From Nitrospira sp. (GTDB taxonomy: Bacteria; Nitrospirota; Nitrospiria; Nitrospirales; Nitrospiraceae), in the NCBI GenBank assembly GCA_029194665.1, contig JARFXO010000001.1, positions 558,001 through 622,000 of the forward strand: a DNA stretch of 64,000 nt. Direction: 5' to 3'. Below the pieces are notes generated by a model that made no database searches, was not told the origin of the DNA, and was given only the letters and a program-made list of their open reading frames with translations. Position 1 is the first letter of the stretch; every line of letters begins with the position of its first letter. Position numbers and translations under genes: made by a program. Shown in pieces: positions 47,031 through 56,142 of the stretch.

Positions 47031-47930
47031 TCAGCCAAGCAATTCTTGCCGGGCCGTCCGGACGAGAGCAAGGACGGCCGGGTGCTTCAGCCGTCGTTCC
47101 ACAGTGATTGCGTAGAAATGTTGTTTGACAACTTCCAGCTCTCCGACCACCTGCACCCGATATTGGCGGCAGATCTCCTTCTCGATCACCGATCCGCCAG
47201 GGAAGATCCCATATCCATCCTGGCCGAATGCCTTTAAGGTCGCACTGTCGTCGAACTCTCCGACGATGTTCGGATGCAGCCTCTGGTCGATCAGCCATTC
47301 ATCGAGCAGTCGACGGAGCGCGGCATTGGAAGTCGGGAGGAGCATGGGTGCTCCGCTTAACGACTGTGGAAACCCCCGACGATATTGTGCCGCCAGCTTG
47401 GCCGTCGCAAACAGCATCACACCCGATTCACCGAGGGGATGACTGTAGGTGAGCTCCTTGATGCTTGATGGGGCCGGAGTGTCGGCAATCACCAGATCCA
47501 ATCGATGGGCTGTCAGATCGGTCAAGAGTTGGTGAAGTTTGTCTTCCTGACAGATCAAGCGAGTCGGTCGAGACAGTTTCAGCGCCGACTTGAGCAGTCG
47601 GGTCGCCAGCGGTTTTGGGACAGCGTCCGCGATGCCGACAACCAGACGGGCAGGATGTCCATTCGCCTGCCCCTTGACCGATTTCATCAGCTCTTGACCG
47701 GTCGCGAAGATGTCCTCCGCGTATTTGAACACGAGCTGCCCCATCTCCGTCAGGGCCAGGCGGCGACCTGTTCGGATGAACAGCTTCTCGCCCAATGTAT
47801 TTTCCAAGAGGTGGATCTGTCCGCTGATCGTGGGCTGGGCCAAGCGAAGTTCCTCGCAGGCTTTCGTCATGGTGCCGTGCTTGGCGACGGACCAGAAATA
47901 CAAGAGATGATGATAGTTCAGCCAATCCAT
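47031..47930 (-). CDS. nhaR: LysR-family regulator, NhaR type
   Basis: The 299-residue protein has an N-terminal winged HTH, LNYHHLLYFWSVAKHGTMTK, CEELRLAQPTISGQIHLL, followed by a type-2 periplasmic-binding-like effector domain. The opening words match NhaR. NhaR regulates the NhaA antiporter and other envelope genes in known bacteria. Here it is divergent from three TolC-like genes, so it probably controls the export cluster. Start at 47930; a candidate LysR site lies at 47979-47993. Confidence 0.88.
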   Translation of the reverse strand: MDWLNYHHLLYFWSVAKHGTMTKACEELRLAQPTISGQIHLLENTLGEKLFIRTGRRLALTEMGQLVFKYAEDIFATGQELMKSVKGQANGHPARLVVGIADAVPKPLATRLLKSALKLSRPTRLICQEDKLHQLLTDLTAHRLDLVIADTPAPSSIKELTYSHPLGESGVMLFATAKLAAQYRRGFPQSLSGAPMLLPTSNAALRRLLDEWLIDQRLHPNIVGEFDDSATLKAFGQDGYGIFPGGSVIEKEICRQYRVQVVGELEVVKQHFYAITVERRLKHPAVLALVRTARQELLG

Positions 47931-48095: not shown

Positions 48096-49649
48096 ATGAT
48101 CGCTCTGGTGTTGGCCATTGTGACTCTCCTGCCAATGACCGCACTGGCGGAACCGGTGATCGACTCGCGTGCGATGCAGGCTCTGTCGACCCGCACCGCT
48201 CCCCTGACCATCGATGAAGTGCTGGCTCGCATCGAGTTGACGCATCCGTTGCTTCGGGCGATGGGAGCCGAGCGAGCAAAGGCCCGGGCGAAGATCCTGA
48301 AGGCGCTCGGGGCCTGGGAACCGACGTTCAAGAACAGAATGCAGATGCAACGTTATCAAACGTGGAATCTCACGACGGCTCCCGACATACAGGACGGAGA
48401 AACGGCGGGATTTATCGACACCATTCTCGAGGTCGGGCATCCCTGGGGCTTCACGGTCAGTAGCGGACTCCGCAGCGGCGTCGGGAATCGCCGCAATGAC
48501 AACGTCATTTCTTTTCCCCCTGAGATGCTGGCCTTCTACCATAATCAGCACTTCTACTTCGCCGGGTCGTTCCATCTGCTGCGAGGCCTCATGGTCAATG
48601 AAGAGAACGCCCAGTTTCAACAGGCCGAGCTCGCGGGGCCGCAAGCGGAGATCAAGGTGGGGCAGAAGCGACAAGATCTCTACCTGGCCGGGGCCGTGCA
48701 GTACTGGGATTGGCAGGTCGCCGTCAAGCAGGCAGAGGTCGTGAAGCGCGCCTTGGCCGTTGCCGAAGAGCGCGTGGTCCAGGTCGAAGGGTTGGCCAAG
48801 GGCGGAAAGCTCGCGCCGCTCGATGTGATCGAGGTGGACCAAGAGGTTCAGCGTCGACGAGAGGCAGCCATCGCTGCCCAGCGGAAGGTGGAGTATGAGC
48901 AGTATAAACTGTCCCTCTTTCTCTGGGAGAACGGCGAGCCGGTGACGCCGCGACCGGAATGGGCGCCGGAATTCCAGGGCGAAACGCCGCTCCCAACCAA
49001 GGACCAGGTCGCGACCTATAAAGTCGAGGCGAAAGAAGATCGGCCGGAAGTGCGGGAGCTCTACATCGACGCCAAGCTGAACAATATCGACCTCAAGCTC
49101 GCCAAGAACAAACTGCTCCCGTCGTTGGATCTCGAAGGGGGACCGACCCCTGGCGCCGCGGACTGGATTGTGGGAATCGGGTATCGGGCTGGCCTCCATG
49201 CTGAGATGCCGCTGTTCCAGCGGGAAGGGCGTGGGAAGGTCATGGCCGCGGAGGTGCAACAGCAACAACTGGCGTTGAAACAGCGTTATGCAGAACAACA
49301 AGTCAGCTTGGACGTGGATAACTGGCTCTCGGCCCAAGTGCGGGCCAGAGACCGGGTGACGGCGGCGACGGAGGCCCTGCGGTTGGCCAAGACGCTGGAG
49401 GAGGGCGAACGGACTCGCTTCAATATGGGCTTGACCACCGTCCTCTTTGTGAACCTCCGTGAGCGCAACGTGGTGGAATTGGCGTACCAGCTGTACCGAG
49501 CCCAGGCAGACTATACGGTGTCCAAGGGAGGAATGCTGTGGGCGAGAGGGCTATTGTCGAAGCCCTGGCCGACCGAGTCCCTGGCGAAGTATGGAAATCC
49601 GCTGACGGCAGCTGGTATGAACGGCTTCAAACAGCCTGGCCGCGATTAA
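48096..49649 (+). CDS. TolC-like outer membrane factor, copy 1
   Basis: The 517-residue protein has a signal peptide (MIALVLAIVTLLPMTALAEP) and the long helical, Gln/Ala-rich architecture of TolC/OMF proteins, with two repeats. Segments such as DVIEVDQEVQRRREAAIAAQ and TRFNMGLTTVLFVNLRERNV are typical. It probably forms a trimeric channel across the outer membrane. Length is within the family norm. It is the first of three paralogues in tandem and lies divergent to nhaR. Confidence 0.88.
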   Translation: MIALVLAIVTLLPMTALAEPVIDSRAMQALSTRTAPLTIDEVLARIELTHPLLRAMGAERAKARAKILKALGAWEPTFKNRMQMQRYQTWNLTTAPDIQDGETAGFIDTILEVGHPWGFTVSSGLRSGVGNRRNDNVISFPPEMLAFYHNQHFYFAGSFHLLRGLMVNEENAQFQQAELAGPQAEIKVGQKRQDLYLAGAVQYWDWQVAVKQAEVVKRALAVAEERVVQVEGLAKGGKLAPLDVIEVDQEVQRRREAAIAAQRKVEYEQYKLSLFLWENGEPVTPRPEWAPEFQGETPLPTKDQVATYKVEAKEDRPEVRELYIDAKLNNIDLKLAKNKLLPSLDLEGGPTPGAADWIVGIGYRAGLHAEMPLFQREGRGKVMAAEVQQQQLALKQRYAEQQVSLDVDNWLSAQVRARDRVTAATEALRLAKTLEEGERTRFNMGLTTVLFVNLRERNVVELAYQLYRAQADYTVSKGGMLWARGLLSKPWPTESLAKYGNPLTAAGMNGFKQPGRD

Positions 49650-49660
49650 TCCGGCACAAC

Positions 49661-49673
49661 AAGGAGCATCCTT
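49661..49673 (+). promoter_or_regulatory. Conserved ribosome-binding leader, copy 2
   Basis: AAGGAGCATCCTT precedes the second TolC-like ATG by two bases, exactly as in copy 1. It lies 11 bases after the first gene's stop. Confidence 0.7.
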
Positions 49674-49675
49674 CG

Positions 49676-51220
49676 ATGGTCCCTCTATTACTCGTGATGC
49701 TGATCTTGCTTCCCGTGACGACAGGGGCGGAGCCGGTGCTCGATTCAAGTGCGTTGAAAGCGCAGTCCGCCCGCACCGCTCCCCTGACCATCAGTGAAGT
49801 GCTGGCTCGTATTGAGTTGACGCATCCGCTGCTTCGGGCGACCGGGGTTGAACGGATGCAGGCCAGGGCGAAGATCTTGAAGGCGCTCGGGGCCTGGGAA
49901 CCGACGTTCAAAAACACGACAGAGGCCGCTCGTTATCAGAGTTGGAATTTCCTGAGCACCCTGAATGAGAATACAGGAGGATTTAACGACAGCAAGCTCG
50001 AGGTCGGGCACCCCTGGGGCTTCCGGGTCGTCGGCGGAATCCGCAACGGCTTTGGGGATCTCAACACGATGGCCGTCCATGCGGTCATCCCTGATGCCCT
50101 GATGTTCTATCCTCAGCAGCAAGCGATCTTCGGTGGGTCGTTCCATCTGCTGCGAGGCCTCATGGTCAACGAGGAGAACGCCGAGTTTCAAAAGGCCGAA
50201 CTCGCCGGGCCGAAGGCGGAGATCGCGGTGGCGCAGGCAAGGCAAGACCTCTATCTCGCCGGCGCCGTCCAATATTGGGATTGGCAAGTGGCGGTGAAAC
50301 AGGCAGAAGTGCAGAAGCGGGTATTGGCCGTTGCGGAAGAACGCCTCATTCAGGTGCAAGGGCTGGCCAAAGGTGGGCAGGCGGCGCCGCTCGATGTGAT
50401 CGAGGTGAACAAAGAGGTTCAGGTTCGAAGAGAGGCAGCCATCGCCGCCCAGCGGAAGGTGGAGTATGAGCAGTATAAACTGTCCCTCTTTCTCTGGGAG
50501 AACGGCGAGCCGGTGACGCCGCGACCGGAATGGGCGCCGGAATTCCAGGGCGAAACGCCGCTCCCGACCAAGGACGAGGTCGCGGCCTATAAAGTCGAGG
50601 CGAAAGAAGATCGGCCGGAAGTGCGGGACCTCTACATCGACGCCAAGCTGAACAATATCGACCTCAAGCTCGCCAAGAACTACCTGCTCCCAAAGTTTGA
50701 TGTCGAGGGGGGACGAATGCTGGCGGCCGCGGACTGGGTTGTGGGAATCGGGTATGGGATCGAATCGCGGTTAGCGATGCCGCTGTTCCAGCGGGAAGGG
50801 CGTGGGAAGGTCCTGTACGCGGAAGCGGACCAGCAACAGTTGGTGTTGAAACAGGTGTATACCGAGCAACAAGTCAGCATCGACGTGGACAACTGGCTCT
50901 CGGCCCAAGTGCGGGCCAGAGACCGAGTGAAGGCGGCGACCGAAGCGCTGCGGTTGGCTAAGACGCTGGAGGAGGGCGAACGGACCCGCTTCAATATGGG
51001 CGCGACCACCGTGCTCTTCGTCAATGTGCGCGAGCGAAATGTCGTGAATACAGCCTACCAACTCTACCGGGCCCAGGCCGACTACGCCGTGGCGCGTGGA
51101 GGGATGCTCTGGGCGAGGGGACTATTGTCGAAGCCCTGGCCTGAAAGCGAGTTGGCCAAGTACGGGAACCCGCTGACGGCGGCGGGGATGCATGGGTACA
51201 AACAACCGGGACGTGAATAA
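49676..51220 (+). CDS. TolC-like outer membrane factor, copy 2
   Basis: The 514-residue protein has a signal peptide (MVPLLLVMLILLPVTTGAEP) and the same OMF layout as copy 1. From about 50430 to 50690 its DNA is almost identical to copy 1 (48860-49110), over the segment around VEYEQYKLSLFLWENGEP. The N-terminal third is clearly different. This suggests recent duplication or gene conversion. The ATG at 49676, with its leader, is preferred over upstream ATG codons in the first gene. Confidence 0.88.
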   Translation: MVPLLLVMLILLPVTTGAEPVLDSSALKAQSARTAPLTISEVLARIELTHPLLRATGVERMQARAKILKALGAWEPTFKNTTEAARYQSWNFLSTLNENTGGFNDSKLEVGHPWGFRVVGGIRNGFGDLNTMAVHAVIPDALMFYPQQQAIFGGSFHLLRGLMVNEENAEFQKAELAGPKAEIAVAQARQDLYLAGAVQYWDWQVAVKQAEVQKRVLAVAEERLIQVQGLAKGGQAAPLDVIEVNKEVQVRREAAIAAQRKVEYEQYKLSLFLWENGEPVTPRPEWAPEFQGETPLPTKDEVAAYKVEAKEDRPEVRDLYIDAKLNNIDLKLAKNYLLPKFDVEGGRMLAAADWVVGIGYGIESRLAMPLFQREGRGKVLYAEADQQQLVLKQVYTEQQVSIDVDNWLSAQVRARDRVKAATEALRLAKTLEEGERTRFNMGATTVLFVNVRERNVVNTAYQLYRAQADYAVARGGMLWARGLLSKPWPESELAKYGNPLTAAGMHGYKQPGRE

Positions 51221-51230
51221 TCCAGCAACA

Positions 51231-51243
51231 AAGGAGCATCCTT
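51231..51243 (+). promoter_or_regulatory. Conserved ribosome-binding leader, copy 3
   Basis: AAGGAGCATCCTT precedes the third gene, whose start is GTG at 51246. It is the third identical copy. Confidence 0.7.
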
Positions 51244-51245
51244 CC

Positions 51246-52838
51246 GTGATCCTTCTCTTGCTGTTCTCGTTGATGATTGTGCCGGCGACCGCAGTGGCGG
51301 AACCCCACGCGGTGAGCTCACCAAGCGCTGAGTCTGTGCGGACCGCCTCCCTGACCATTGAAGAGGTGTTTGCCCGGATTGAGTTGAACCATCCTCTGCT
51401 CCGCGCAACCGGACTGGAGCGGGCGCAGGCTCGGGCGAGACTCGTGAAAGCGTTGGGTGCATGGGAGCCGAAGGTTCGGAACGAGCTCGAGTACGACCGC
51501 TATCAAACGTATAATTTGACGAACGTGGCTGGTGCGCCGAATGTATTGAGTGCCGGCTATAACGATACCTTTCTCAAAGTCGCGCACCCTTGGGGCTGGG
51601 AGCTCTACGGCGGTCTCCGTAACGGCTTTGGGGATAGATCGACGATCGGTGGCTTCAACGGCATCCCACCACAACATGTGCCAGGCAGCCCCGGGGTGGC
51701 GATCCCTCAAGACATGCAAGGTTTCACGACGATGCAAGTGCTCATGATCGGCGGAGCGATTAATCTCATGCGGGGATTCATGGTCAACGAAGCGTACGCG
51801 GAGTTCCAGCAGGCGGAGCTCGCCGGGCCGCAAGCCGAGGTGAAGGTGGCCCAGAAACGGCAAGATCTCTATCTCGCCTCTGCCGTGCAATACTGGGATT
51901 GGCAGGTGGCTGTCAGACAGGCCGAGATGGTGAAGCGTGCGCTGGCCGTCGCGGAAGAACGCTATGGCATGGTGGAGGGGAAATCCAAAGCCGGGGCGGT
52001 CGCTCCGATCGACGTGGTCGAAGCCCGAGAGGAAGTTCAGCGGCGTCGAGAGGCTGCCATTGCCGCGCAACGGAAGGTCGAGTATGAACAATATAAGCTT
52101 GCGCTGTTTCTCTGGGAAAACGACGGACCGGTGACGCCGAGATCCGAATGGGCCCCGGAATTTCAGGGGGAAACGCCCTTGCCGAGTGAAGAGGATGTGG
52201 CGGCCTTCAAGGTGGCAGCAGCGGAGGATCGTCCGGAAGTGCGCGATCTTTACATTGAAGCCAAATTGAACAATATCGAACTGAAACTGGCGAAGAATAG
52301 TCTGCTCCCAAAGCTCACGATTGAGGGGGGGCCGGTGACGGGCGCTATCTATTGGATTGGAGGGTTCTCCTACCGGATGGGTGCTCTCCTCAGTATGCCG
52401 TTGTTCAATCGGGGTGCCAGAGGGAGGGTTCGTCACGCAGAAGCTGAACAGGAACGGTTGATCTGGAAACAAGCTTACACCGAGCGTCAGGTTCAGATCG
52501 AAGTCGATAACTGGCTTTCTGCAATCGTGCGAGCCCGGGATCGGGTGAAAGCCTCGACCGAATCACTCCGATTGGCCAAGACATTGGAAGAGGGTGAACG
52601 AGCCCGATTCAATATGGGAGCGACGAGTGTGCTGTTCGTCAACCTGCGCGAGCGCGCCGTCGTCCAAGCGGCCTATGAGCTCTACCGCGCTCAGGCGGAT
52701 TACGCCGTGGCTCGTGGAGGAATGCTGTGGGCCAGAGGGGCACTGTCAAGACCGTTGGCCGACGACGTGCTGGCTAAATACGGCAACCCCTTGTCTTCGT
52801 CCGGATCTGCTGGCCGCAAAATGCCGGGACGCGATTAG
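51246..52838 (+). CDS. TolC-like outer membrane factor, copy 3
   Basis: The 530-residue protein (GTG start) has a signal peptide MILLLLFSLMIVPATAVAEP and the OMF repeat architecture. It is more diverged than copies 1 and 2, with a longer segment near residues 100-160. Its C-terminus ARGALSRPLADDVLAKYGNP keeps the conserved family end. The three genes may make mixed or alternative channels. The ABC-type gene follows after 137 bases. Confidence 0.86.
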   Translation: MILLLLFSLMIVPATAVAEPHAVSSPSAESVRTASLTIEEVFARIELNHPLLRATGLERAQARARLVKALGAWEPKVRNELEYDRYQTYNLTNVAGAPNVLSAGYNDTFLKVAHPWGWELYGGLRNGFGDRSTIGGFNGIPPQHVPGSPGVAIPQDMQGFTTMQVLMIGGAINLMRGFMVNEAYAEFQQAELAGPQAEVKVAQKRQDLYLASAVQYWDWQVAVRQAEMVKRALAVAEERYGMVEGKSKAGAVAPIDVVEAREEVQRRREAAIAAQRKVEYEQYKLALFLWENDGPVTPRSEWAPEFQGETPLPSEEDVAAFKVAAAEDRPEVRDLYIEAKLNNIELKLAKNSLLPKLTIEGGPVTGAIYWIGGFSYRMGALLSMPLFNRGARGRVRHAEAEQERLIWKQAYTERQVQIEVDNWLSAIVRARDRVKASTESLRLAKTLEEGERARFNMGATSVLFVNLRERAVVQAAYELYRAQADYAVARGGMLWARGALSRPLADDVLAKYGNPLSSSGSAGRKMPGRD

Positions 52839-52975
52839 GTAGAGGCAGGGTGGTAATAGGGGATAGTTCATTCGATGGGCTTGGCAGCAGCTTTTCAAAC
52901 GTGATTAAGTGCATCCGTGGTTAAATTCGGCAAGGGGCGCATGATCCACATTCTGACCTATTACTGGGGGTGCTC

Positions 52976-54652
52976 ATGAAAGAACCTCAGGGCGAAAGTT
53001 ATCAAGGCCTGTTCGAGGCGCTGATGAAGCAGCTGTCCGTGGCGATACGGGCTGAGAAAAAAATCATGAGTCTGATTTTTTCTTATGCCCTAGCCGTTGG
53101 GTTCTTTTCTCTTATCATCCCGTTGACCGTGCAGGAGTTGGTCAGCACCTTTTCCTACGCCGTTCAGCCGGTCATGATCTGGACCCTGACCGGCATTATG
53201 CTCTCAGTGCTGTTGTTTGTCGGCCTGTTCAAGACCTTTCATTTCTACGCGGTGGACGTCTTGCAACGCCGGCTCTTTGCAAGGGTCGCGGTCGCGATGG
53301 TTGAGCAGCTTCCTCGGAATCGATTTAAAGGGGCGCGGCAGGAGCTGTCGAACTACTTTATCGAAACGGTCTTTATGCAACGGGCCTTGTCCACCATGCT
53401 CATCGACCTGATGAACGTCGTGGTGGGTGGCTCGGTCGGCATGGTCGTGCTGATCGTCTACCATCCCTATTTTCTCGTGTACAACCTTCTGCTCATGGCC
53501 GGGTTCGGGATCACGTTTTTCGTGCTCTCTCGTGGTGCACTGAAGACGACGCTCGCCATGTCTCATGCGAAGTACGATGTCTTCAATTGGATCCAAGATG
53601 TTTCGCGGAATGCCTTGCAGCTGAAGGCCACCGACAGCCGCCCATTTCTCATCCAGAAAACGAATGACCTTGTCACCCAGTATGTCGAAACTCGAAAAGC
53701 CCGATTTGTTGTTCTCGTGCGGCAATATATTGGTTCGGTGACGGGCCAAGCAGTTGCACAATCTGGTGCGCTCGCCCTCTCAGCCTGGCTCATGGCATCG
53801 GGGCAGTTGACGCTAGGACAATTGGTGGCTGTTCAGGCGGTCGTCGGCGCACTCATTCTCAATTTCGATTCCCTCATCAAGAACATGGGCTATGTGTACT
53901 ATTTCTTTACGTCGCTGAAACACCTCGATGAGGTCTTTAGCCAAGAGCAAGATTACGTCGCACCCGAATCCGCAGTGGCACTGCCCAAGCATTTGACGCA
54001 AGGGGTCCGCATCACCTGCAAAAGCGTGAGTTTGATTCACGGGGGAGTGTCCGTATTCGATGGATTCAACCTGGAAGTAGCACCAGGCGAAAAGCTCGGT
54101 ATCTATGCGCGAACCACGGGAGCCAAAACTGCTTTGGCCAGAGTGTTGGGCGGCCTTGAAAATCCGACCAATGGTGTCGTTCAGTACAATGGCGTTGATC
54201 TTCGGTACATCGAACCTAATGCCATCAATCAGACCCGCAGTGTCATGATCGACTCTCAGTTGTCGCTGATCAAGGGAACGATAGAAGAAAATATCGTCAT
54301 GGGACGATCCTATGTCACCTATGATGACCTCAACTGGGCCCTCCGGTTCACCGAACTTGAGGAAGATGTCGAGGGCTTGCCACGTGGCGTGAAGTCCGAG
54401 ATCTCCTCGCTGGGAGAATCCCTTTCTCCGACCCACATTGTGCAGATTCTCCTGGCCAGGGCGATTCTAGGGCATCCGCAAGTTCTCATATTTGACGGCT
54501 TGATTCACTCGCTTGAGCCATCGTTGCGCGAGCGTGTGCTGCGTCGGCTCTGCTCGAAAGATGAAGCATGGTCTGTGATCTTTGTGTCGACGGATCCCAA
54601 TCTTACGGATCATGCCGATCGTCGCATTATGCTGCATCATGCCCATGCGTAA
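52976..54652 (+). CDS. ABC exporter-like protein with degenerate ATPase motifs
   Basis: The 558-residue protein has an N-terminal membrane domain (about six helices, for example FSYALAVGFFSLIIPLTVQE) and a C-terminal ABC domain. The domain is unusual. Walker A is ARTTGAKT (Lys kept, glycines lost). The signature LSGGQ is replaced by LSPTH. Walker B is VLIFDG, lacking the catalytic Glu, and the switch His is replaced in FVSTDPNLTDH. The overall layout is type I secretion-like. ATP hydrolysis is therefore doubtful. It may work as a scaffold or with another motor. The ATG at 52976 is preferred to GTG at 52970. Confidence 0.85.
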   Translation: MKEPQGESYQGLFEALMKQLSVAIRAEKKIMSLIFSYALAVGFFSLIIPLTVQELVSTFSYAVQPVMIWTLTGIMLSVLLFVGLFKTFHFYAVDVLQRRLFARVAVAMVEQLPRNRFKGARQELSNYFIETVFMQRALSTMLIDLMNVVVGGSVGMVVLIVYHPYFLVYNLLLMAGFGITFFVLSRGALKTTLAMSHAKYDVFNWIQDVSRNALQLKATDSRPFLIQKTNDLVTQYVETRKARFVVLVRQYIGSVTGQAVAQSGALALSAWLMASGQLTLGQLVAVQAVVGALILNFDSLIKNMGYVYYFFTSLKHLDEVFSQEQDYVAPESAVALPKHLTQGVRITCKSVSLIHGGVSVFDGFNLEVAPGEKLGIYARTTGAKTALARVLGGLENPTNGVVQYNGVDLRYIEPNAINQTRSVMIDSQLSLIKGTIEENIVMGRSYVTYDDLNWALRFTELEEDVEGLPRGVKSEISSLGESLSPTHIVQILLARAILGHPQVLIFDGLIHSLEPSLRERVLRRLCSKDEAWSVIFVSTDPNLTDHADRRIMLHHAHA

Positions 54653-54696: not shown

Positions 54697-56142
54697 ATGG
54701 CTAGCCTAGGTGGCGGTGTCGAAGGCAGCGGGGAACGTGCGTTGGTCAAGCGAGGGGTGGGTTTGGAAGCGATCACCATCGAACAAGGCCCCACATTGGC
54801 CAAGTTGCCATGCTGGGAAGCGGTACAGATTCCAGGAGGAATGTTCACGGCATCTCGTGCAATTCTGACAATCCTCCTGCTTTTTTTGATCGTCCTTGAG
54901 TTCGTCCCATGGACACAGACCATCTCTGCGACTGGGAGAGTTTCTGCTTATACTCCCTACGACCGACCGCAGAAGATCGAGTCCCGGATTACGGGCCGTG
55001 TCAAGGCGTGGCATATTTTTGAAGGCGTGAAGGTGAAGAAAGGCGAGCTCATCGGCGAACTCGAGGACTATGACCCGACCTTTATGGCCCCTGAGATCCT
55101 TCCTCTCTTCGAACAGCGTAAGGTAGCCCAGGAACAAACGCGCCAAGCGGCCTTGGCGAGGGCGGATCAGCTCAACAAGAGAATTGCAGAGATGAAGAAG
55201 CTGGTGCAGGCCGCCGTCCCCTCGGCCGAGGCCAGAGTGGTGGAAGCTGACAACAAAGTGCGAGAGGCGCAACAGAAGGTCGAACAGCTAAAGATCGACG
55301 TGGTCACAGCGCAACTCAATGTCGACCGGCATCGGCAACTCGTCAGGGACGGGCTGGTTTCACAACGAGAACTTGAGTTAACAATTCAGACGGAAATCAG
55401 CACAAAAGCAGGATTGCAAGCAGCACAGGCCGGTTTGTTGGCGGCTGAGCAGTCTCGGTCTGCCTTAAGCTTCGGACGTGATCAAGTCACGGCGGATGTG
55501 CATCAACGACTCATGGAGGCCATCGCACAGCGCGATAATGCGGTCGCGGAAGCTGCCAAAGCGACGGAGGCGTTGGCGGATATTCAGTACCGGCAACAGG
55601 GGGTCCAACAACGGATCGAGGCGGCCCGTCTCATCGCTCCGATGGACGGAACCGTGGTCAAAATGGCTAGGGTCGGTGTCAACGAGACTGTCAGACAGGG
55701 AGACAATTTGGTCACTATTTCTCCTCTCGCCAGCGATCCAGCCATCGAAATGGTAGCCGAAGGGTTGGATTCTCCGCTTTTGAAACCTGGACGGAAGGTT
55801 CGAATCTTGTTTTTTGGGGTGCCGGCCATCCCATTGCCTGCCTGGCCTTCATTGATGGCGGGCACTCGTGGGGGGGTCATCAAGGTGGTTGACCAGATCG
55901 ACGATGGAAAGGGAAATTATCGGTTCTGGGTCGTTCCTGACCCGGATGATCCTCAACCATGGCCTGAGCAGACTCAGGTGAGGCAGGGCACAAAAGTATT
56001 GGGTTGGGTGATAATGCATCGCGTCCCTCTGTGGTACGAACTGTGGCGGCGCTTTAACTTCTTCCCGCCGGACTATCTTGAGCGGTCTCCGAGTGTCTTT
56101 GAGATGTTTGCGCCCAAGCTGGCGGCTCCGGGCGGTAAATAG
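54697..56142 (+). CDS. HlyD-family membrane fusion (adaptor) protein
   Basis: The 481-residue protein has a cytoplasmic N-terminus and one membrane segment (about residues 50-72, ILTILLLFLIVLEFVPW). The lipoyl-like and hairpin parts follow, with EQLKIDVVTAQLNVDRHRQL in the coiled coil and RLIAPMDGTVVKMARVGVNE as the second half-motif. It would bridge the ABC protein to a TolC channel. The start is the ATG at 54697 after GGAGG, with short spacing; 54682 is also possible. It starts 44 bases after the ABC gene. Confidence 0.88.
   Translation: MASLGGGVEGSGERALVKRGVGLEAITIEQGPTLAKLPCWEAVQIPGGMFTASRAILTILLLFLIVLEFVPWTQTISATGRVSAYTPYDRPQKIESRITGRVKAWHIFEGVKVKKGELIGELEDYDPTFMAPEILPLFEQRKVAQEQTRQAALARADQLNKRIAEMKKLVQAAVPSAEARVVEADNKVREAQQKVEQLKIDVVTAQLNVDRHRQLVRDGLVSQRELELTIQTEISTKAGLQAAQAGLLAAEQSRSALSFGRDQVTADVHQRLMEAIAQRDNAVAEAAKATEALADIQYRQQGVQQRIEAARLIAPMDGTVVKMARVGVNETVRQGDNLVTISPLASDPAIEMVAEGLDSPLLKPGRKVRILFFGVPAIPLPAWPSLMAGTRGGVIKVVDQIDDGKGNYRFWVVPDPDDPQPWPEQTQVRQGTKVLGWVIMHRVPLWYELWRRFNFFPPDYLERSPSVFEMFAPKLAAPGGK

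Follow-up and report, generated by a model that had tools for sequence, protein, structure and literature searches.

The gene at 52976..54652 on the plus strand of the window, by which we mean the whole 64,000-nucleotide stretch of Nitrospira DNA analysed here, encodes a full-length type IV ABC exporter half-transporter in which every key residue of the ATP site is replaced. As far as alignments and trees can tell, this protein is one leaf of an old clade that is found in the window's phylum, in Bacteroidota and in Sphingomonadales. ATP turnover by the ABC mechanism is very unlikely in such a protein, to judge from the residues it has lost. The reading that we favour, and to which we give about an even chance, is that it forms the inner-membrane half of a dedicated pseudo-ABC/HlyD/TolC system. 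Its nucleotide-binding domain (NBD) would belong to a clade without a canonical ATP cycle and would have a structural or regulatory role, with transport not powered by hydrolysis at its own NBDs.

The reading frame is open throughout, giving 558 amino acids from the ATG at 52976 or 560 from a GTG at 52970. It comprises a six-helix transmembrane domain (TMD, residues 10-321 approximately) and a degenerate NBD (residues 340-558 approximately). All four motifs of the ATP site, on the plus strand like the gene itself, are altered. Where the canonical P-loop would be GxxxxGK[ST], there is ARTTGAKT (residues 378-385, from A378; 54107..54130), which retains K384 and T385. The signature LSGGQ has become LSPTH (residues 483-487, L483 to H487; 54422..54436). 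Walker B reads VLIFDGLIH (residues 503-511; 54482..54508), with D507 retained and the catalytic Glu changed to Gly508, while in the H-loop, VSTDP (residues 537-541; 54584..54598), the switch His is lost to Thr539. Canonical exporters from the same genome show GRSGSGKST, LSGGQ, ILIFDEATSAL and ITHRLS in the same alignment columns, and misalignment of the motifs is thereby ruled out; with distant NBDs some uncertainty attaches to single columns. The initial annotation, which was made from the letters of the sequence, had described the same four changes in an unbroken frame with an intact membrane domain, and the alignment, the motif table and the structural model bear it out.

Profile searches place the protein far from any named family. 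In Pfam the NBD gives a weak match (ABC_tran, 37 bits) and the TMD gives none. Of the NCBIfam models, NHLM ABC1, LssB and CydC come nearest, with scores that are a fraction of their cut-offs (NHLM_micro_ABC1 119.6 against 853.3, LssB 110.8 against 693.1; for PrtD and HlyB the values are 99.9 against 510.2 and 83 against 725.6). The AlphaFold2 model (pLDDT 84.8, pTM 0.76) has the complete ABC exporter fold of type IV, a six-helix domain-swapped TMD fused to a RecA-like NBD. Its nearest structure is HlyB (8dck_A, Z 29.3, rmsd 2.5 over 535 residues), and it matches HlyB, TmrAB, PCAT1, MsbA and PrtD with Z of 25-29 over more than 520 residues, the first three of these being the nearest.

In an ABC dimer, one NBD supplies Walker A, Walker B and the His of an ATP site and its partner supplies the signature; an ABC exporter is said to require one such consensus site at the least. 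Since both contributions are missing from our protein, it would form no complete site, either as a homodimer or with a canonical partner. This weighs heavily against the idea that it is the degenerate half of a heterodimer, of the TM287/288 or TmrAB type, whose canonical ABC half-transporter is encoded at another locus. Heterodimeric exporters often have degenerate sites, the source genome encodes several canonical ABC exporters, and TM287/288, TmrAB, BmrCD and CFTR/ABCC do combine the same fold with degenerate motifs. However, the heterodimers known keep one consensus site per dimer (PMC7756269), whereas here both halves of the site have gone, so that any partner would leave both sites incomplete. 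Furthermore, a canonical ABC gene is not found with the operon, and the type I secretion ABC protein of the genome (592 aa) appears, by length and sequence, to have adaptor-like and TolC-like neighbours of its own. We consider a heterodimer of this kind improbable.

Could the gene simply be dead? The motif losses themselves, and nothing else, would speak for a pseudogene or a sequencing artefact. Against this, at least 37 orthologues, taken from independent assemblies, have the frame open, and most of the replaced motif residues are 95-100% conserved among 37 orthologues. A dN/dS estimate, which the initial annotation had proposed, points the same way. For 37 orthologues of at least 75% identity, taking medians over pairs with dS of 0.1-1.2 (Nei-Gojobori), dN/dS within the genus is 0.072 for the whole gene, which indicates that it is maintained under purifying selection. 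These observations refute the pseudogene or artefact, to which we leave virtually no chance. For the TMD the median is 0.094 and for the NBD 0.042; together with the conservation of the replaced motifs, this means that within the genus no part of the protein is better protected than the dead NBD.

Across the three taxonomic groups the picture is reversed, and nearly all of the family-invariant residues lie in the TMD. Those that are absent from canonical exporters are Y37, P49, Q53, H163, F166, S196, W205, Y236, Q250 and Q282. Several of the invariant residues sit in intracellular loops that dock onto the NBD, and for this reason coupling between TMD and NBD seems still to matter in the family.

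The loss of the ATP site is a property of the family as a whole. We compared the motifs of 172 homologues, 83 from the window's phylum, 84 in the Bacteroidota set and 5 from Sphingomonadales. The switch His is kept in none of the 172 and the Walker-B "DE" in one. Homologues with canonical motifs at the aligned positions, named in the initial annotation as the observation that would undo its claim, were not found: no member of the 172 has a canonical motif set, and no canonical relatives inside the family were returned by a full-length query, a TMD-only query or the tree. Judged on the absence of the switch His from every homologue and on the 95-100% conservation of the replaced residues at most positions in the 37 orthologues, the loss is far beyond chance.

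What remains of the site differs by lineage. Throughout the window's phylum all four motifs are replaced, with a canonical P-loop in 0/83 and a canonical signature in 0/83. Among Bacteroidota the P-loop is kept in 77/84, the signature position is ISYTVxKK-like and the Walker-B Asp is replaced by E, K or N. The sphingomonads have lost the P-loop wholly, and two of the five have an LSxGE-like signature. This pattern points to a single early loss of the residues for hydrolysis, which may have been followed by separate decay or reuse in each lineage.

Reuse deserves a closer look, for the NBD might still employ ATP in a non-canonical manner, by nucleotide binding or slow hydrolysis through K384, T385, D507, H511 and D540, and so gate the exporter. 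The window protein keeps K384, T385 and D507. The P-loop lysine is K in 76 of the 83 homologues of the phylum and in 83 of the 84 from Bacteroidota, where the full P-loop is so often preserved, and G508, H511 and D540, which occupy or adjoin the positions of the lost catalytic residues, are found in 83/83 in the phylum, as if newly employed. The strong constraint on the NBD within the genus would fit as well. On the other hand, homologues of the f3 family have lost the lysine too (ETARHRV, ESQRLQV); such losses, with that of the P-loop in sphingomonads, imply that nucleotide use is no family-wide requirement. The switch His is also missing, as is the signature that the opposite subunit should provide. 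We therefore think this explanation unlikely.

How old is the family, and is it one family? An alignment and tree with canonical ABC exporters, a step of the kind suggested in the initial annotation, answer the second question. In the full-protein tree, 14 canonical exporters served for comparison, and the degenerate proteins group together to their exclusion with support of 100/100. A tree of the TMD recovers the same single clade (100/100) on a stem of 2.5 changes per column. Within it three subclades correspond to the three taxonomic groups; the NBD tree is less resolved. When the TMD was used as a tblastn query against 72,556 plasmid records, exactly 22 records were matched, all of them carrying members of the family. 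The whole set of 72,556 records holds thousands of canonical exporters, and a full-length query from Bacteroidota matches 2,103 of the records. These results show, at the level of sequence, a single origin of the membrane domain.

The adaptor follows the same path. The window HlyD protein matched 20 plasmid records, all among the 22 that carry a pseudo-ABC gene, and the adaptor of Persicobacter matched loci of the family plus a few ordinary type I secretion adaptors at the edge of the threshold (E = 1e-10). The adaptors are homologous across phyla (34% identity between the window and Persicobacter proteins, E 5e-74). By these searches the adjacent HlyD adaptor is shown to be a private, co-inherited partner of the family. 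The window protein thus has its TMD in the clade, a degenerate NBD and a private HlyD protein beside it.

The operon in the window agrees with this. The HlyD-type adaptor lies directly downstream (54697..56142, plus strand, 481 aa, Pfam HlyD_3; its ATG at 54697 is preceded by GGAGG). It is the sole member of its family in the source genome and falls below the type_I_hlyD cut-off (53.4 against 208.7). Upstream, at 48096-52838, there are three TolC-like outer-membrane factors, all plus strand and all matched by Pfam OEP. The first (48096..49649) and the second (49538..51220) are 64% and 65% identical to the third (51192..52838); the last two are given as the listed open reading frames, and the true start of the second is probably downstream of 49538. 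The initial annotation had seen an operon with HlyD and three TolC-like genes, and so it is: a membrane-fusion protein and a TolC-type channel are both encoded. Three tandem channel genes, approximately 65% identical, for one adaptor are a peculiarity here, as other genera have one copy. A divergent LysR-family regulator (47031..47930, minus strand; Pfam HTH_1 and LysR_substrate) may control the operon, to which it is adjacent in several genomes of the genus.

Type I secretion ABC proteins (HlyB, PrtD, and the LssB/LapB type) are the obvious comparison. They have the same fold (HlyB 8dck, Z 29.3; PrtD 5l22, Z 26.4), they share the HlyD/TolC-type operon, and they are among the best NCBIfam similarities together with NHLM ABC1 and CydC. 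In contrast to them, the window protein scores far below the family cut-offs, has no C39-like domain, branches in a separate clade and would have no functional ATP site. No gene for a protein substrate was recognised among the annotated flanking open reading frames or among gene clusters conserved beside the homologues. Regulators of TetR, LysR or MarR type beside the operon look more like those of efflux than of secretion systems. A TetR-type gene precedes the operon in 71 of 83 Bacteroidota loci, and a LysR or MarR gene is near it in several others. Of the "new secretion variant" suggested in the initial annotation, the maintained pseudo-ABC exporter stands, and secretion is no more than possible.

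The source genome also has a separate operon (L193:3247-13976) with a canonical ABC gene (592 aa) beside adaptor-like (446 aa) and TolC-like (463 aa) open reading frames. An open reading frame of 1822 aa near it could encode a secreted substrate. These assignments were made by length and sequence start.

If the protein does not hydrolyse ATP, something else may do so for it, or it may not transport at all. The first suggestion, another ATPase, finds no support. Neither a canonical ABC partner nor any other ATPase gene is conserved with the operon in the window's phylum or in Bacteroidota; as for a second SecA as motor, one SecA_DEAD protein is all that the source genome encodes, and the operon showed none. 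Loci with a secondary SecA_DEAD protein and HlyD have been described, with type I-like parts but no working ABC ATPase, and a different ATPase was proposed for them (Kamneva 2015; PMC4452313). Those loci contain no ABC protein, whereas the window operon has one and shows no SecA_DEAD gene.

The second suggestion is that the protein is a non-transporting scaffold, structural or regulatory. It might hold the HlyD-TolC conduit in place and gate it, or it might sense a ligand; transport would then fall to something else or not occur. Sensory use is made plausible by paralogues (L056, L061, L080 and L088) that have a PAS histidine kinase and a regulator of NtrC type as neighbours in place of HlyD/TolC. 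However, the set of ABC, HlyD and TolC genes is complete in the window type, the operons of the window's phylum and of Bacteroidota show no second conserved inner-membrane transporter, and the TMD retains many family-invariant residues. We judge a pure scaffold quite unlikely. Of the "non-hydrolysing scaffold" originally proposed, the first word probably holds, canonical turnover being very unlikely, and the protein may be either a scaffold or an active transporter.

How might a dedicated pseudo-ABC/HlyD/TolC exporter, the reading we prefer, work? The protein would be a homodimer whose NBDs serve as a structural or regulatory module that is still coupled to the membrane domain, as the family-wide invariance of the coupling-loop residues S196, W205 and Y236 suggests. 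Its substrate, passed out by way of HlyD and TolC, may be a small or hydrophobic compound. Transport would proceed without ATP hydrolysis at its own NBDs, and might draw on an ion gradient, like that of SbmA, or be facilitative, down the gradient of the substrate. Nucleotide would perhaps be a ligand only in Bacteroidota, where the P-loop survives.

SbmA offers a precedent in part, since its ABC-type TMD is proton-driven without ATP hydrolysis (PMC13316013). By analogy, the likeness between SbmA/BacA (SLiPT) and our family is the ABC-type TMD, and work without hydrolysis may be common to both. The differences are considerable. SbmA is an importer with no NBD, no coupling helices and a glutamate ladder; the pseudo-ABC proteins, in contrast, have an NBD and coupling loops under strong selection, with invariant residues in the loops, and are linked to HlyD and TolC. 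Nor is a glutamate-ladder solution evident here. Elsewhere in the family one membrane glutamate is conserved, E287 in TM6, which would be an obvious candidate for coupling to protons, yet the window protein has Gln in its place, as do 32 of 39 close relatives. It fails, therefore, as a family-wide proton-coupling residue, and a simple glutamate-based proton mechanism is unsupported for the window protein.

We may put the idea in more general terms, tentatively and at somewhat less than even chance. In a clade of tripartite exporters present in at least three bacterial groups, an ABC exporter would have turned into a differently energised transporter whose NBDs are kept as a selected, non-hydrolytic coupling module. 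This would be a fourth way to energise conduits of the HlyD/TolC type, besides ABC-ATPase, RND and MFS.

As to distribution, the protein is not unique to its genome or genus, which relatives in the window's phylum, Bacteroidota and Sphingomonadales rule out. Orthologues at 82-97% identity exist in most genomes of the genus, paralogues at 38-59% identity across the family and order, and 77 of 296 sampled genomes of the phylum have at least one member. Relatives at approximately 25% identity are carried on plasmids of Persicobacter, Aureibacter, Riemerella and many Sphingomonadales, and a genome scan seeded with distant members found at least 514 relatives. The best 80 of these 514 matches are from Bacteroidota, except for one MAG contig (L158) labelled Saccharospirillaceae (Gammaproteobacteria). 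Its member falls inside the Bacteroidota clade, by transfer or by a binning error. The LSPTH signature itself does occur in other members of the genus, where the initial annotation would have looked for it, but it is a genus-level form only; paralogues have APTH, TSSQ and similar strings. The gene order ABC-HlyD-TolC is found in Bacteroidota (approximately 80 loci) and in Sphingomonadales, and the same set of three occurs in the window's phylum.

To our reading of the open-licence PMC literature, including that on Nitrospira, Flavobacterium and Riemerella, no prior description of NBD loss in this family was found. A tripartite exporter with the ABC fold is known as a kind; an ATPase-dead clade that crosses phyla with its own adaptor appears not to have been described before. 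One member has probably been published. Blastomonas fulva T2 has an hlyB-hlyD-omp operon, HlyBD2-OMP2, with an hlyB of 1659 bp that is closest to a "toxin secretion ABC transporter" of Novosphingobium aromaticivorans (PMC9505733). It was presented as an ordinary ABC-type pump, with no mention of Walker motifs or of the NBD (PMC9505733), and it is from this description that we judge it probably to belong here. Many members are named "ABC transporter ATP-binding protein" in databases. With one of them published as an HlyB pump, annotation probably hides the family.

The family amounts to a large natural experiment: exporters with an adaptor and a channel of their own have lost both sites and are nevertheless maintained under strong selection. 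The stage reached varies with the lineage: the P-loop survives in Bacteroidota and an LSxGE-like signature in two of the five sphingomonads, and neither is left in the window's phylum. Whether, and how, the ABC exporter fold can operate without ATP hydrolysis thus becomes directly testable.

Some members depart from the common arrangement. Among 43 paralogues, 11 lie outside HlyD/TolC operons. The four mentioned above (L056, L061, L080 and L088) have two adjoining genes, which in L056 encode the PAS histidine kinase and the sigma-54 response regulator of NtrC type, and there is no HlyD or TolC gene within five genes. Others (L057, L066, L067, L068 and L081) are placed among genes for a family-2 glycosyltransferase, a PMT-type mannosyltransferase and a PAP2 phosphatase, again without HlyD/TolC; a Na+/H+ exchanger gene is sometimes also nearby. 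Four loci (L055, L058, L083 and L090) carry two diverged pseudo-ABC genes in tandem within an operon, and since both copies are degenerate, the pairing restores no site. Two Persicobacter members (L095 and L099) reach 724 aa and carry an additional domain of approximately 150 residues at the N-terminus. Finally, on a small plasmid of Sphingobium sp. KCTC 72723 (L102:1362-3914), a DUF2309 gene lies directly 5' of the pseudo-ABC operon.
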